Assembly: GCA_937139605.1 (NCBI GenBank)
Contig: CAKZQG010000020.1
Coordinates: forward strand, 1 to 8,882
Direction: 5' to 3'
Length of the DNA: 8,882 nt
Origin: an uncultured bacterium
GTDB lineage: Bacteria; DRYD01
Part shown: positions 2,482-8,882 of the stretch, piece after piece
Layout: the number at the start of each line of letters is the position of its first letter
Numbering within the stretch: position 1 is the stretch's first letter
Made by a program: the position numbers and the translations under genes
The notes under the pieces: generated by a model
The model's input: only the letters and a program-made list of their open reading frames with translations
Database searches by the model: none
What the model was told of the DNA's origin: nothing

Positions 2482-4074
2482 TTATGCTTCTAATGGTTCA
2501 CCTAATGGCGAAAGTGAAGTATAAACTGGATTAGCAGTTCCATCCGCATATCTAGGCGTTTCATTAATAAATACCCAATGTGCATCTGGATATAAATCAA
2601 TAAATCCCTTTATACCGTGAATAAATCCATTTGTTTTTAATGGATTTTCATTGTTAATTGTTTCGAATACATCAGTTGAAGGATAATTCTTCAATTTAAC
2701 AGTTTTGAAATGTGATTTATCTACAAGCAAAGCTACATTAGATGCACCATTTAGCGTTAATTTATCCGATGGTACTACATCTACTTTTAATCCTTCACCA
2801 GTTGTAAATAATTTACCTTCTACATTCCATTCTGATTTAATATCAGGTACACTTTGTGTCATAAAGTTAATCATAGTTACAAAATCAGTATAAAATTCAG
2901 CACCACAAATAAGTGCTTTTCTATCTGAACCGTGATATGCTTTACCTTGTAATACCTTATTGAATATACTTGGATGAAAACTACCAAAGTTAGCAGATGA
3001 ACCACCAGTAAATCCAGCACTGTAATCTATTCCCTTTACTCTCCAGTAATGACTTTTTGGTATATTAGCCAAAAAACCATCGGTAGTTCCTGACCAATAA
3101 CCAGTTTCAGCATCAAATTCCTCACTCTTCTCACCAAAGATTGCTGACCATTCCCAACTATCATAGTAATCTCTTATTGCCTCTCTTTTTGATTTAGTAA
3201 GTGGGGATTCAATACCCATATTAGTAGATATTATCTCAGATAGATACTGACTACCCCAAGCTCTTAAATCTCTTTGTAATATTCCATATGCCCAAGTTCC
3301 ACTAAAAGATTTGATTTTAGCATCTATTTCATCTTCTTTCATTGACTTAGCCATAGGAATAATAAAAGCATATTTTTCATTAATTTGTCCTGAAGTCCAG
3401 TTAGAAGCACCAGTAACTACTGAAAATGCACTGTAAGATGGAGTAACTGTTCTCTGTTCACCAGCCCAGTTTCTTTCAACTGTTATAGTTGATTTCTTAT
3501 AATCTACTGATAAAATTTTCCATATTTCAGGTAAAGGCTTATTTCCTAATCCATTCGGAGCATATGAAGGTGCTACTGTTCTACCAGGAGCTACCCAGCT
3601 AAACATTGCTAACACAAATTGACCAGGTTCTAATCTTGCAATATCACCTACTTGTTTAATATTCCCTTTCGGATGTGCAGTGCTAATCGGAGTTTGGTTA
3701 CTCTTAATTTTAACAGTAGCTATTGCATCACCACCTACACTACCTTGAACTGCAAGGTATAACTTGTGCTGTGGTTCAATTTCAATAGGCAATCTAAATC
3801 TAACATCATTTACTTCAATACCGCCATCTAATTCTGACTGTTCAAATAGGATTTTTAAAAAGTTACTTCTTCCTTCCTGTATTTTGAACATTAAATCCTT
3901 TTCCAATAACAAAGGGTTTCTTTGATATTCAGGAATAGTTGCTAATATTGAACGTCCTTGAATATAAGGTAAGTTAAATGGTTTTTCGTAAAATCCTCTA
4001 CTTGAACTACCACCAGGTATAGGGGTAGTAAACCCACCAAAACTTGTTGGAGTTCCTTTATATAAATCTGCCAT
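2482..4074 (-). CDS. Major capsid protein
   Basis: This 530-residue protein starts at ATG (4074-4072) behind AAGGAG about eight bases upstream. It sits between the scaffold gene and a putative decoration gene, in the canonical portal-scaffold-capsid order. The N-terminus is flexible and Gly/Ser/Pro-rich (about 1-30), as in many capsid N-arms. A helical segment follows around 57-82 (LLLEKDLMFKIQEGRSNFLK). A beta-rich insertion covers about 95-235, and a long helix-bearing central domain with many Trp residues (WSAIFG, YWSGTTDGF) covers about 245-350. The C-terminal half contains a plausible A-domain (AEFYTDFVTMINFM, then SEWNVEGKLFTTGEGLKVDVVPSD). An HK97-like fold, possibly of the SU10-like family used by some podoviruses, is inferred from size, order and pattern; no diagnostic motif proves it. 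No protease gene or obvious propeptide is seen beside it. Confidence 0.78.
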   Translation of the reverse strand: MADLYKGTPTSFGGFTTPIPGGSSSRGFYEKPFNLPYIQGRSILATIPEYQRNPLLLEKDLMFKIQEGRSNFLKILFEQSELDGGIEVNDVRFRLPIEIEPQHKLYLAVQGSVGGDAIATVKIKSNQTPISTAHPKGNIKQVGDIARLEPGQFVLAMFSWVAPGRTVAPSYAPNGLGNKPLPEIWKILSVDYKKSTITVERNWAGEQRTVTPSYSAFSVVTGASNWTSGQINEKYAFIIPMAKSMKEDEIDAKIKSFSGTWAYGILQRDLRAWGSQYLSEIISTNMGIESPLTKSKREAIRDYYDSWEWSAIFGEKSEEFDAETGYWSGTTDGFLANIPKSHYWRVKGIDYSAGFTGGSSANFGSFHPSIFNKVLQGKAYHGSDRKALICGAEFYTDFVTMINFMTQSVPDIKSEWNVEGKLFTTGEGLKVDVVPSDKLTLNGASNVALLVDKSHFKTVKLKNYPSTDVFETINNENPLKTNGFIHGIKGFIDLYPDAHWVFINETPRYADGTANPVYTSLSPLGEPLEA

Positions 4075-4087
4075 AGTTTATTCTCCT

Positions 4088-4915
4088 TTATAAATTTGAA
4101 ATAAATTTACTTCGGAGACTTTGAAAGGTTGGTTGTCCTACGTTAACTGAAGCTATTGAGGGTATTTTCTTAGTTCTTATAGCAAAGTTAAACATCTTTG
4201 CTAAATCAACTAATTTTAATTTCTGTGCCCACTGTTGAAATCTAACTAAATGCTCATCATCCCATTTCATTTCCTTTTTAACAGCTTCCATATCTCTTTG
4301 AATATTAGCCATCATTTCTTTTTCCTGTTTTTCACGCATCTGTTTCTTCAACTGTATGGCTTCTTTAAGTGTCTGTACTTTTGGAGTATTTCCTTTATAT
4401 TCATCATAAAGTTCATCTAATCTCTTAAAGTAAAGCCAGGCTTTTCCACCAGGATTTTCATCTGCTTCAGCTCTCGTATAACGGACATCACCAAATTCAC
4501 TTTTAAGTCTCTGTTGTATTATACTTGTTATATCCGTTTCTTTAATTAATTCTGGTTTACGCTCTCTGACAAACGCTTCAAAGACTAAGTCATCTTCTAA
4601 TAAGTCATTGAGAATTTGTAAATATACCGCATTCTCTTCCTGCTCTTTAACAAGTTTTTGATGCTCGTTATAAAGCTTATCATACCTTGATTGAAGAGTC
4701 CTTATAAGTCCTTCAGTTTTGTCTAAGTGCTTAAACCTTTCATCAATCTCAATTTCTTGAGACTGTTGAGAACTTTCTGCATCAACACTATCCTGACTAA
4801 CTGAATCCACCTGCTCATTTACTTCAAATACATCCATCACATCTTCTGTTAGTAAAGATGGAGTGATTGTACTTGATTGATTAGATGCTTCGTTATTTTG
4901 GATAATATTTTCCAT
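4088..4915 (-). CDS. Scaffolding (capsid assembly) protein
   Basis: This 275-residue protein starts at ATG (4915-4913) behind AGAGGTG. It lies between portal and major capsid genes, as scaffolds do. Residues 1-60 are acidic and rich in Ser, Gln and Asn and look disordered. Residues about 64-110 form a predicted coiled coil (LIRTLQSRYDKLYNEHQKL). A second charged helix occurs at about 182-218 with KKQMREKQEKEMMANIQRDM. The C-terminus is basic (RTKK near 247-250; RSKFISNL at the end), fitting the known use of a short basic C-terminal segment by P22-type scaffolds to bind capsid subunits. Low complexity, helix content, charge pattern and synteny all agree; the sequence itself has no conserved motif. 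Scaffold is expected inside procapsids and released on maturation. Confidence 0.72.
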   Translation of the reverse strand: MENIIQNNEASNQSSTITPSLLTEDVMDVFEVNEQVDSVSQDSVDAESSQQSQEIEIDERFKHLDKTEGLIRTLQSRYDKLYNEHQKLVKEQEENAVYLQILNDLLEDDLVFEAFVRERKPELIKETDITSIIQQRLKSEFGDVRYTRAEADENPGGKAWLYFKRLDELYDEYKGNTPKVQTLKEAIQLKKQMREKQEKEMMANIQRDMEAVKKEMKWDDEHLVRFQQWAQKLKLVDLAKMFNFAIRTKKIPSIASVNVGQPTFQSLRSKFISNL

Positions 4916-4951: not shown

Positions 4952-6970
4952 TCAAGTAATATTTTTATCTTTTTGACCTAAAGATTTAATTAACGTTTCT
5001 GATAATTTATTTAATTCATCTATCATTAACTGTTGATTTTCTGTATTTATTTCAGAAATATCTTCTGCCGATAATATTTTTTTATTGATTGAAACAACTG
5101 TTTGTAATATTAACTTAGATAACTTTTCATTGTATTCAGATAATAAAGCTCTATTTTCATATTGTTTAATAAGTTCTTTATCTCTTTCTATTTGTGCACT
5201 TAATTGTTGTATCTGTTGTTGTAATTGACGTATTACATCTAATTCTTCTTGCATTTCATCAAAGCTTCTTATATCAGATAGTTCAAACGCTTTCTTTATA
5301 TAAACTTCTCTTTGATATGGGTCTTGTGTTGTTTGTGCTATTTTAAACATTTCAACAGATTGTGCAATTTTTTGTGATGGTAATAATTCTGAATTTACAG
5401 ATAGTAATAAATATTTAACTACTTGTGAGTTATCTAACATTTCCTTAGTAATTTTAATCTCATCTACTTTATTACTATTATTTAATAGAACGTATGTTTG
5501 TCCTACTTGTAGTGTATTAAGTAAGTACTCTATTATTACATTACCAAGCTGTTCATTAGCTATTTGAATATGATTTAACGCAAGTGCAATCCTTTCCATC
5601 GCCGCATTTTGATACTGTTGTAATGTAGAAAATACATCTATTCTATTTCTATTAGGGTCTCCCGTTACTGCTGAATTTATAGCTGTTGACATTTCCATAC
5701 TAACTCTCATCAGTTCAATTAAACTTGGATAAAAGTTAGATAACTGTTGTATTTGTTCCTTTTCAGGTTTTAATACATTTCCTTCAATATTAACTATTTT
5801 ATATTCTTTAATTGAACCTGGTCTAGAACCTAATCCTTCCCAATTAGCTCTATTGGTATCATCTACTGAACCTTCAGGAACTAACCATCCTGCATTATTT
5901 GTTAAAATACCATTGACAAGCATTTGTTGAATAGCTTTATCAGCTGTATTTTGCATTTCACGAATAAAATGTACTGCTGAATAACTCCTATATGGTCTGC
6001 CTCCCCATTCAAAAAACTTAACTTTAATTTTGAAATCTGTAATTGGTAACATTTCAGTTAAAACTATATAATCTCCCCATATTAAAGTTTTCCTAACAAA
6101 CATATTCTCTTCTTTACTTTCAGCAGTTTCCAATATACCTACAAGCTCCTGGTCTAAATTTTCTTCAAATACCTTAACAAGTGTATCAGTATTAATATCA
6201 CGAATGTAATACATATTAGTTAAAACTTTATCATAATATTCTGTTACTGTTACTGTTTTATTATGTAAATCTGTAATTGCTTTTGTTCTTTCATTAGTAT
6301 TAATAGTCTTGCCTGTAAAATAATTTTCATCTACTGGTTCTAATTCATTAGCAATACGCAATTGATTTATTTCTGTTAATAAAGGTTGATATAAATTTAA
6401 AAATTCATCTAAAGGTACTTCTTTTTCTACAAAGTAACCTCGCATATCAGATAAACTTCTTTTACGACTATTAGCATCTAATATTACCTCTAATGGATGT
6501 AAATTAACATACCTTATTGGCAACTCACCTACTTGATAATATTGTTTTTCTTCTATGGTACTTATTCCCATTCCTAATATTAACATATTTTTTATGGTCT
6601 CTTCTTCTTCACCTAATGCTTCAGATTTATACATTATATGCTTAACTAATTTATCAAGTATATGTGCATATTGCTTACCCCGTTCATCAAGTGCAACTAC
6701 CCTAAAACTTGGCTTAGCTTTAGTCATTAAAGCAAGTTTGTGATTAATTAAAGGATGAATGAAATTAATTGATACAGGGACACCACTCCCTTCTTTATAT
6801 ATTTTCTCTAACTGTTCTTTGGTAAATGTAGTACCTGTATCATCTACATCATTGTAATAATATTGTTCATTTAATTCTGCATAAGCCCACCAATTATTAC
6901 GTTGATTTAACCAAGTTTCTCTTTTCTTTTTTAATTCTTCTGGTACTTGTTCTAATGTAAATACTATCAT
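4952..6970 (-). CDS. Portal protein, P22-like
   Basis: This 672-residue protein starts at ATG (6970-6968) behind GAGAGG at five bases. It would form the dodecameric ring through which DNA is packaged and ejected. Residues 61-140 carry the typical portal start: GVPVSINFIHPLINHKLALM, then KPSFRVVALDERG, a helix with HILDKLVKHIM, and the LILGMGIS segment. The central region has AVHFIREMQNTADKAIQQML and, further on, SAVTGDPNRNRIDVFSTLQQ leading to a long helix, matching the crown/stem organisation of P22-type portals. Residues about 571-615 form a Gln/Glu-rich coiled coil (EELDVIRQLQQQIQQLSAQI), like the helical barrel seen at the C-terminus of P22 portal. The length suits that family. It is the first gene after a strong terminator. 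No terminase gene lies upstream in this window. Confidence 0.88.
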   Translation of the reverse strand: MIVFTLEQVPEELKKKRETWLNQRNNWWAYAELNEQYYYNDVDDTGTTFTKEQLEKIYKEGSGVPVSINFIHPLINHKLALMTKAKPSFRVVALDERGKQYAHILDKLVKHIMYKSEALGEEEETIKNMLILGMGISTIEEKQYYQVGELPIRYVNLHPLEVILDANSRKRSLSDMRGYFVEKEVPLDEFLNLYQPLLTEINQLRIANELEPVDENYFTGKTINTNERTKAITDLHNKTVTVTEYYDKVLTNMYYIRDINTDTLVKVFEENLDQELVGILETAESKEENMFVRKTLIWGDYIVLTEMLPITDFKIKVKFFEWGGRPYRSYSAVHFIREMQNTADKAIQQMLVNGILTNNAGWLVPEGSVDDTNRANWEGLGSRPGSIKEYKIVNIEGNVLKPEKEQIQQLSNFYPSLIELMRVSMEMSTAINSAVTGDPNRNRIDVFSTLQQYQNAAMERIALALNHIQIANEQLGNVIIEYLLNTLQVGQTYVLLNNSNKVDEIKITKEMLDNSQVVKYLLLSVNSELLPSQKIAQSVEMFKIAQTTQDPYQREVYIKKAFELSDIRSFDEMQEELDVIRQLQQQIQQLSAQIERDKELIKQYENRALLSEYNEKLSKLILQTVVSINKKILSAEDISEINTENQQLMIDELNKLSETLIKSLGQKDKNIT

Positions 6971-7446: not shown

Positions 7447-7932
7447 CTATTTGTTATATTCATAAATCATTTTTTCGTAATTTTCAAAGTTAGTCATCAT
7501 TTTCTTTAACTCCTTTTTAGTAAGTGGAATAAACTTCCATTCCTCTTCAGGTTTCTTTATTCTTATCATTTCTTCTTTACCCGATGGATAACTAATTTTA
7601 GTATATTTGTAAATAGTATCCCAAATTGGAATATTTCTTCTATATAGCCAATTATTTACGTGAGTAACTGATAAACTTAATTTTGCCGCTATTTGCTTTC
7701 TAGTTATCTTTTTTCTTTCATATAAAGCTACATACTTGTTAACTATCTTATTTTCTGGTCTTTTCGCTAAAATCTTATCCCAAATCTCAATATTACGAAA
7801 ATATAACCAATTATTGATACGCTTTAGGGGTACTCTAAGTTTATCACAAATTTGCTTTCTATTTAATTTTTTTCTTCGATAATCTTCAATAAGTTTTTCT
7901 ATTACCTCTTTATCTATTTTAGATTTCCCCAT
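7447..7932 (-). CDS. Tandem helix-turn-helix DNA-binding protein
   Basis: This 161-residue basic protein starts at ATG (7932-7930) behind GGGAG, eight bases after the stop of the 49-aa gene. Two copies of a ~45-residue unit are offset by 53 residues: about 10-54 (with LNRKQICDKLRVPLKRINNW, then RNIEIWDKI) and about 63-107 (with ITRKQIAAKLSLSVTHVNNW, then RNIPIWDTI). Each has the helix-turn-helix pattern RKQIxxKLxxxxxxxNNWL, in which the second helix would contact DNA. The C-terminal third (about 108-161) is charged and probably helical, ending MIYEYNK, with no recognised catalytic residues. A repressor or activator of nearby operons is the natural guess; an architectural or transposition-related DNA-binding role is also possible. 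The two units are clear internal duplicates that have since diverged. Confidence 0.8.
   Translation of the reverse strand: MGKSKIDKEVIEKLIEDYRRKKLNRKQICDKLRVPLKRINNWLYFRNIEIWDKILAKRPENKIVNKYVALYERKKITRKQIAAKLSLSVTHVNNWLYRRNIPIWDTIYKYTKISYPSGKEEMIRIKKPEEEWKFIPLTKKELKKMMTNFENYEKMIYEYNK
7612..7905 (-). repeat. Tandem duplicated helix-turn-helix coding units
   Basis: Two coding units, about 7771-7905 and 7612-7746, encode the two similar 45-residue segments of the helix-turn-helix protein, 159 bases apart start to start. They match better as protein than as DNA, which indicates an old internal duplication. Both end in an RNIxIWDxI motif after the recognition helix. Confidence 0.75.
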
Positions 7933-8090: not shown

Positions 8091-8100
8091 ATTAACTCCT

Positions 8101-8430
8101 CTATTTTTGCCAAACTTTATAATTCTTAGGAATTTCATTAAGCCAGGTACCACCATATGCAGACTCAAAAGTAGTAACAATCAATCCGTGATTAGTTTTT
8201 ATCATAACTAATACTGGTTGATTATTTGCCTTAAAAACTAAACTATGACTTTTAACAATAGTATCATTTAATTTTTCAGTACTTTTTAATTTGTCATAGT
8301 ATTTAATTAATTCATTCCATCTGAAAGCTTTATGTCTTTTACACTCTAATAATATTAAAGTATTATCTTTTTGAGCCAATAAATCATACTTACTATTATC
8401 ATCTGGTCTTTTTACTGTAAAACCCCTCAT
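8101..8430 (-). CDS. PD-(D/E)XK nuclease-like protein, apparently N-terminally truncated
   Basis: This 109-residue frame starts at ATG (8430-8428), three bases from the first CRISPR repeat. Residues 3-31 fit the core of archaeal-type Holliday-junction resolvase and related PD-(D/E)XK folds: GFTVKRPDDNSKYDLL, then LILLECKRHK, giving D16, E29 and K31 in the order D...ExK. The rest is helical (about 38-58), then beta-rich (SLVFKA, PVLVMIK, GLIVTTFESA). Family members are usually somewhat longer and begin with a helix carrying a conserved acidic residue before the GFxxxR segment; that helix is missing here. An in-frame TGA occurs three codons before the ATG, inside the repeat, so no longer version is possible. 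No proper ribosome site is seen, only a weak GAG from the repeat. It may be a broken 5'-deleted gene or a short functional form; activity without the lost residue is uncertain. Confidence 0.55.
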   Translation of the reverse strand: MRGFTVKRPDDNSKYDLLAQKDNTLILLECKRHKAFRWNELIKYYDKLKSTEKLNDTIVKSHSLVFKANNQPVLVMIKTNHGLIVTTFESAYGGTWLNEIPKNYKVWQK

Positions 8431-8433
8431 TTG

Positions 8434-8882
8434 GTCTCAATTCCACTATGGTTCGATTAAAACATTGGACGAAGAATCGTTCGATTCCATCTTGAAGCAG
8501 TCTCAATTCCACTATGGTTCGATTAAAACAAGATTTCGGATTACACACAATTGAATCTGAAATATTCTCAATTCCACTATGGTTCGATTAAAACATCGAG
8601 TACTGTGCTGGGTATCGCAAAAACTCGCTGGGGTCTCAATTCCACTATGGTTCGATTAAAACGAAAAACCCTTAGTGGAGAGAGTATATTCTTTTCTAAA
8701 GTCTCAATTCCACTATGGTTCGATTAAAACATGTTTTGTGGTGGTTGTCATATTGTTCAAAAAGTTGGTCTCAATTCCACTATGGTTCGATTAAAACCCA
8801 GTCGCAAGAAAGATGTTCCAGGGATTTACTTATATCTCAATTCCACTATGGTTCGATTAAAACTAATTACATCACGGTGCCT
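8434..8882 (-). CRISPR. CRISPR array, seven repeats, continues past the right edge
   Basis: Seven repeats of 29-30 bases start at 8434, 8500, 8565, 8633, 8701, 8768 and 8834. They are identical except for the first plus-strand base (T in the third copy, A in the seventh, G in the others), so the strict unit is 29 bases. Six whole spacers measure 36, 35, 38, 38, 37 and 36 bases; a seventh is cut after 19. On the minus strand the repeat begins GTTTTAATCGAACC and ends GGAATTGAGAC. The ATTGAGAC end resembles the ATTGAAAC crRNA 5' tag of type I and III systems, so minus-strand transcription is favoured. A coding frame rather than an AT-rich leader adjoins the left end, placing the leader off the right side and the oldest spacer beside the nuclease ORF. 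No cas gene is in the window, so subtype I-B or III is inference from the repeat only. Confidence 0.97.

Follow-up and report, generated by a model that had tools for sequence, protein, structure and literature searches.

A CRISPR array joined to a 5'-truncated nuclease gene on a phage-like metagenomic contig is probably an assembly artefact

The window analysed here is the whole of contig C20 (8882 bp), which belongs to a 45-contig, 1.88-Mb bin with a completeness of 88.5%. The contig is open at both ends, with an ORF at its left edge and a spacer at its right edge. The preliminary description had presented it as phage-like DNA abutted by a CRISPR array, and both parts of that description hold. 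The minus strand carries a phage head-gene block with portal, probable scaffold and major capsid protein genes together with further small genes. The portal protein (4952..6970) is P22-like, matching PF16510 with E=2.5e-35, and the SU10-like major capsid protein (2482..4074) matches PF17236 slightly below the cut-off (E=9e-5). The ORF at 4088..4915, which lies between the portal and capsid genes, probably encodes the scaffold protein. The same portal-scaffold-capsid order is found in the IMG/VR contig 3300024999_000119 (L020) at 52%, 45% and 61% identity, respectively. In the window, the structural genes are well spaced and intact. Upstream of the portal gene lie a minus-strand gene for a phage protein with two helix-turn-helix (HTH) repeats (7447..7932), small ORFs and a nuclease-like ORF, none of which is conserved in L020. 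The phage part has a G+C content of 29%, compared with 38% in the spacers of the array.

The right end of the window is occupied by a partial CRISPR array (8434..8863, sense on the minus strand), which consists of 7 repeats of 30 nt (GTTTTAATCGAACCATAGTGGAATTGAGAC in the sense direction) and 6 full spacers. Written as GTCTCAATTCCACTATGGTTCGATTAAAAC, the repeat starts at 8434, 8500, 8565, 8633, 8701, 8768 and 8834. Five of the seven copies are perfect over 30 nt and the other two differ in the first base only, while the spacers are 35-38 nt long with none in common. Near-identical repeats that alternate with unique, evenly sized spacers mark the stretch as a CRISPR array. A further spacer is cut off by the contig end after 19 nt (8864-8882). 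The orientation of the array was taken from an A/T-rich non-array flank common to contigs L009-L014, which we read as the leader and which lies on the side matching the window's right edge. The array therefore meets the phage part at its leader-distal end, and its leader side lies beyond the contig end. The terminal repeat at the junction is complete and perfect, like the internal repeats; at the distal end of the array in L008, a degenerate terminal repeat with 2 mismatches is followed by other sequence. Searched as exact 20-mers, three window spacers found no match in IMG/VR, and the window spacers gave only chance-length matches to the window, to L020, to the phage contig L015 described below and to the cas loci of the bin.

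Next to the array lies a 5'-truncated ORF of 109 aa (8101..8430, minus strand) that resembles PD-(D/E)XK nucleases. As the preliminary description had stated, it starts three bases from the terminal repeat, with CAA ATG AGG GGT TTT directly after the repeat, and has an in-frame stop inside it: the frame reads EP*WN*DQ|MRGF, the stops falling within the repeat. The claim that it has no good ribosome site is also confirmed, as positions -25 to -1 contain neither GGAG nor GAGG. Ten other phage ORFs checked carry GGAG/GAGG/GAAGG-like motifs, which leaves the nuclease-like ORF as the sole one among 11 with no Shine-Dalgarno-like motif. The ORF contains KYDLL...LLECK, a D...ExK motif, and matches PDDEXK_5 (E=0.003) and phrog_5018 (E=0.0016), with its residue 2 aligning to profile positions 21 and 22. 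Both matches are weak, the Pfam match to PDDEXK_5 being below its cut-off; taken at face value, they place the loss at ~20 N-terminal residues. QMRGFTVKRP would fit the PD-(D/E)XK fold as the end of its first helix plus its first strand, with the D and ExK coming next. Since the upstream frame is closed in the repeat, a Shine-Dalgarno-like motif is missing and the profile matches begin at about position 21, the ATG of MRGF is most likely a non-native start, the gene having been cut at, or a few bases from, the repeat end. The preliminary description had specified the missing part as the N-terminal helix of an Hjc-type nuclease. The weak profile matches agree with such a loss, but 'Hjc-type' is over-specific, because a PDB search gave chance matches and no sequence relative, and the single-sequence AlphaFold model of the ORF (pLDDT 37) was useless. 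Phages with a full-length version of the gene, to which the preliminary description had looked for the breakpoint, were found neither in IMG/VR nor in phage records. There was likewise no intact relative in 97 relatives of the bin, and 395 genomes sampled from the phylum of the Ignavibacterium sp. MAG L010 gave one chance-level match only.

The repeat itself is foreign to the bin, being absent from the other 44 contigs as well as from 58 other genomes sampled around the bin. Exact copies were found in Ignavibacterium, in Bacteroidota and in one Jordarchaeia MAG, mainly in the first two, and the other MAG contigs with the repeat likewise end within the array. Two loci of the bin carry cas1. The one with an array nearby, on contig C26, uses a different repeat (GTTTCAATTCCTTATAGGTAGGCTAAAAC), which suggests that the array on C20 does not come from the binned organism. 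Our best guess for its owner is an Ignavibacterium-type host; bin membership is unreliable for array contigs of this kind. The C26 array lies at about 6844-7545 of L018 (C26:28001-48000) and is adjoined by Cmr-like and type I-like genes, typed by eye from their sequences. A separate irregularity was seen in the Bacteroidetes contig L009, whose start (1-100) recurs inside its own array (1330-1420), the two places having an identical 37-nt spacer in common (at 56 and at 1381). This reflects either a segmental duplication or a mis-assembly of the array.

The junction probably arose as an artefact; a phage with a captured array is the less likely reading. The explanation that we favour, and consider somewhat probable, is that two real molecules were joined into one chimeric contig through a spacer/protospacer assembly bridge. 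One molecule would be the CRISPR array of a host using the Ignavibacterium/Bacteroidota-type repeat, and the other a tailed phage whose portal is P22-like and whose capsid is SU10-like. The host array would hold a spacer acquired from the nuclease gene of this phage. In a short-k assembly, this spacer of ~35-38 nt, identical to its protospacer (8397-8433), could then lead the path out of the array and into the phage; the nuclease gene would thereby lose its 5' part, and the rest of the array would drop out. The junction segment proposed as both spacer and protospacer (CAAATGAGGGGTTTTACAGTAAAAAGACCAGATGATA; 8397..8433, minus strand) is picked out by its position and spacer-like length. The repeat is complete down to 8434 and the gene-like frame runs from 8433; the break thus falls at a repeat/spacer boundary, as a bridge of this kind needs. 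Such a bridge would produce a break at that boundary inside a gene, a perfect terminal repeat, a repeat that stands alone in its bin, and a short contig open at both ends. It is disfavoured by the fact that a large-k assembly would not bridge through 38 nt, and by searches that found neither a second copy of the junction segment nor an intact nuclease relative by which to place the true 5' end or a PAM. An exact junction 20-mer had no match in IMG/VR, nor did a 38-mer with up to 3 mismatches in the 395 genomes mentioned above, and a 29-mer with up to 3 mismatches matched only the window itself among the bin, its relatives, related phages and repeat-bearing MAGs. These empty searches, like those for the nuclease, carry little weight, since spacers are population-specific and the metagenome of origin lay outside the search. 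Among the papers searched, none was found on spacer/protospacer bridges in assembly. CRISPR arrays are documented as a cause of chimeric contigs in short-read metagenome assembly (PMC6617893), and the window resembles those cases: a fragmented contig ends in an array, the repeat is foreign to the bin and the junction is abrupt. It differs from them in the specific bridge, for which we infer both the spacer/protospacer identity and the path of the assembler.

An alternative is that assembly or scaffolding went wrong in some other way, with spacer and protospacer not identical, e.g. by a join of low-coverage ends. The shortness of the contig, the 45-contig bin and the published array chimeras (PMC6617893) speak for it. 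We think this improbable, as such an error does not favour the repeat/spacer boundary: by our own estimate, with a random break in the 67-bp repeat-spacer unit, roughly 1 case in 8 would have gene-like sequence begin no more than about 8 nt from a repeat end. The preliminary description had instead preferred recombination or insertion that put the distal end of an array in place of the 5' end of the gene. The truncated gene and the array in place of its 5' end stand, whereas recombination found no independent support. Its own alternative, mis-assembly, fits better than recombination and can be specified as a spacer bridge. A genuine event would have destroyed the nuclease by joining a host array to phage DNA, either through spacer/protospacer homology or at the end of a repeat; in particular, a real phage may have captured a stretch of host array when a spacer recombined with the protospacer in that phage, which we consider unlikely. 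The boundary sequence expected from such an event is identical, and the phage would then bear 7 or more repeats that the Cas proteins of the host could process. Virus-borne mini-arrays (PMC6858448), like the window, show host-like repeats in viral DNA with no cas genes in view. The precedent of mini-arrays and solitary repeats in phages (PMC6858448, PMC10651486), and the single exact copy of the window repeat in L015, speak for capture. In the window, however, at least 7 repeats run off the contig edge, neither a cas gene nor a second array flank is in view, and a phage gene is broken at the junction. In mini-arrays, the spacers number one or two and the array sits between genes. A phage-borne array would be established by both flanks or by relatives; the window offers one flank only, and the regions read of the syntenic L020, whose portal and capsid are 52-61% identical, hold no array. 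Recombination is therefore rated below the assembly bridge, with no relative bearing an array, no second flank and the contig itself as its sole support.

Two further readings would leave the contig genuine. It could be host chromosome with a degraded prophage at the distal end of the array and a deletion edge at the last repeat, in keeping with a repeat typical of host arrays. We hold this to be quite unlikely, given phage structural genes that are intact and well spaced, a terminal repeat that is not degenerate and a different repeat in the bin's own array. Least credible, indeed very improbable, is a functional phage-borne CRISPR array beside a naturally short nuclease gene starting at MRGF; the ATG is correctly placed and phage-borne arrays exist, but the ribosome site and the N-terminal part of the fold are missing, and a stop codon lies just upstream.

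A genuine junction would point to a mechanism, recombination between spacer and protospacer, that places CRISPR arrays into the very phages they target. As an artefact, the likelier case, it serves as a warning about any array that neighbours phage genes on a short contig from a metagenome: where an array breaks at a repeat end within a gene, a spacer/protospacer bridge should be suspected before a phage-encoded array is claimed. Even as an artefact, the join assembled through the bridge would indicate which host targets which phage.

The repeat of the window also occurs in a phage contig in another form. IMGVR_UViG_3300029892_000018 (L015, also handled as L034) is the sole IMG/VR contig with the exact repeat, which it carries as one intergenic copy (2906-2935); no second copy was found in the 19.9 kb read when up to 7 differences were allowed. 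Solitary repeat units in phages act as RNA anti-CRISPRs, Racr (PMC10651486). Because the layout in L015 matches these units, we regard its solitary repeat as a Racr candidate that would act on CRISPR systems of the type represented by the window's array. The window shares with them the repeat that occurs singly in L015, and differs in having an ordinary spaced array instead of a solitary repeat. The phage of the window and L015 are possibly phages of related hosts. The two-HTH protein of the window (7447-7932) has 28% identity over 101 aa to a protein encoded at 1326-1724 of L015, which also carries terminase-, portal- and capsid-like genes, named by eye. Directly after the solitary repeat, L015 has a strong G+C-rich hairpin, and the stretch has a folding z-score of -3.6.
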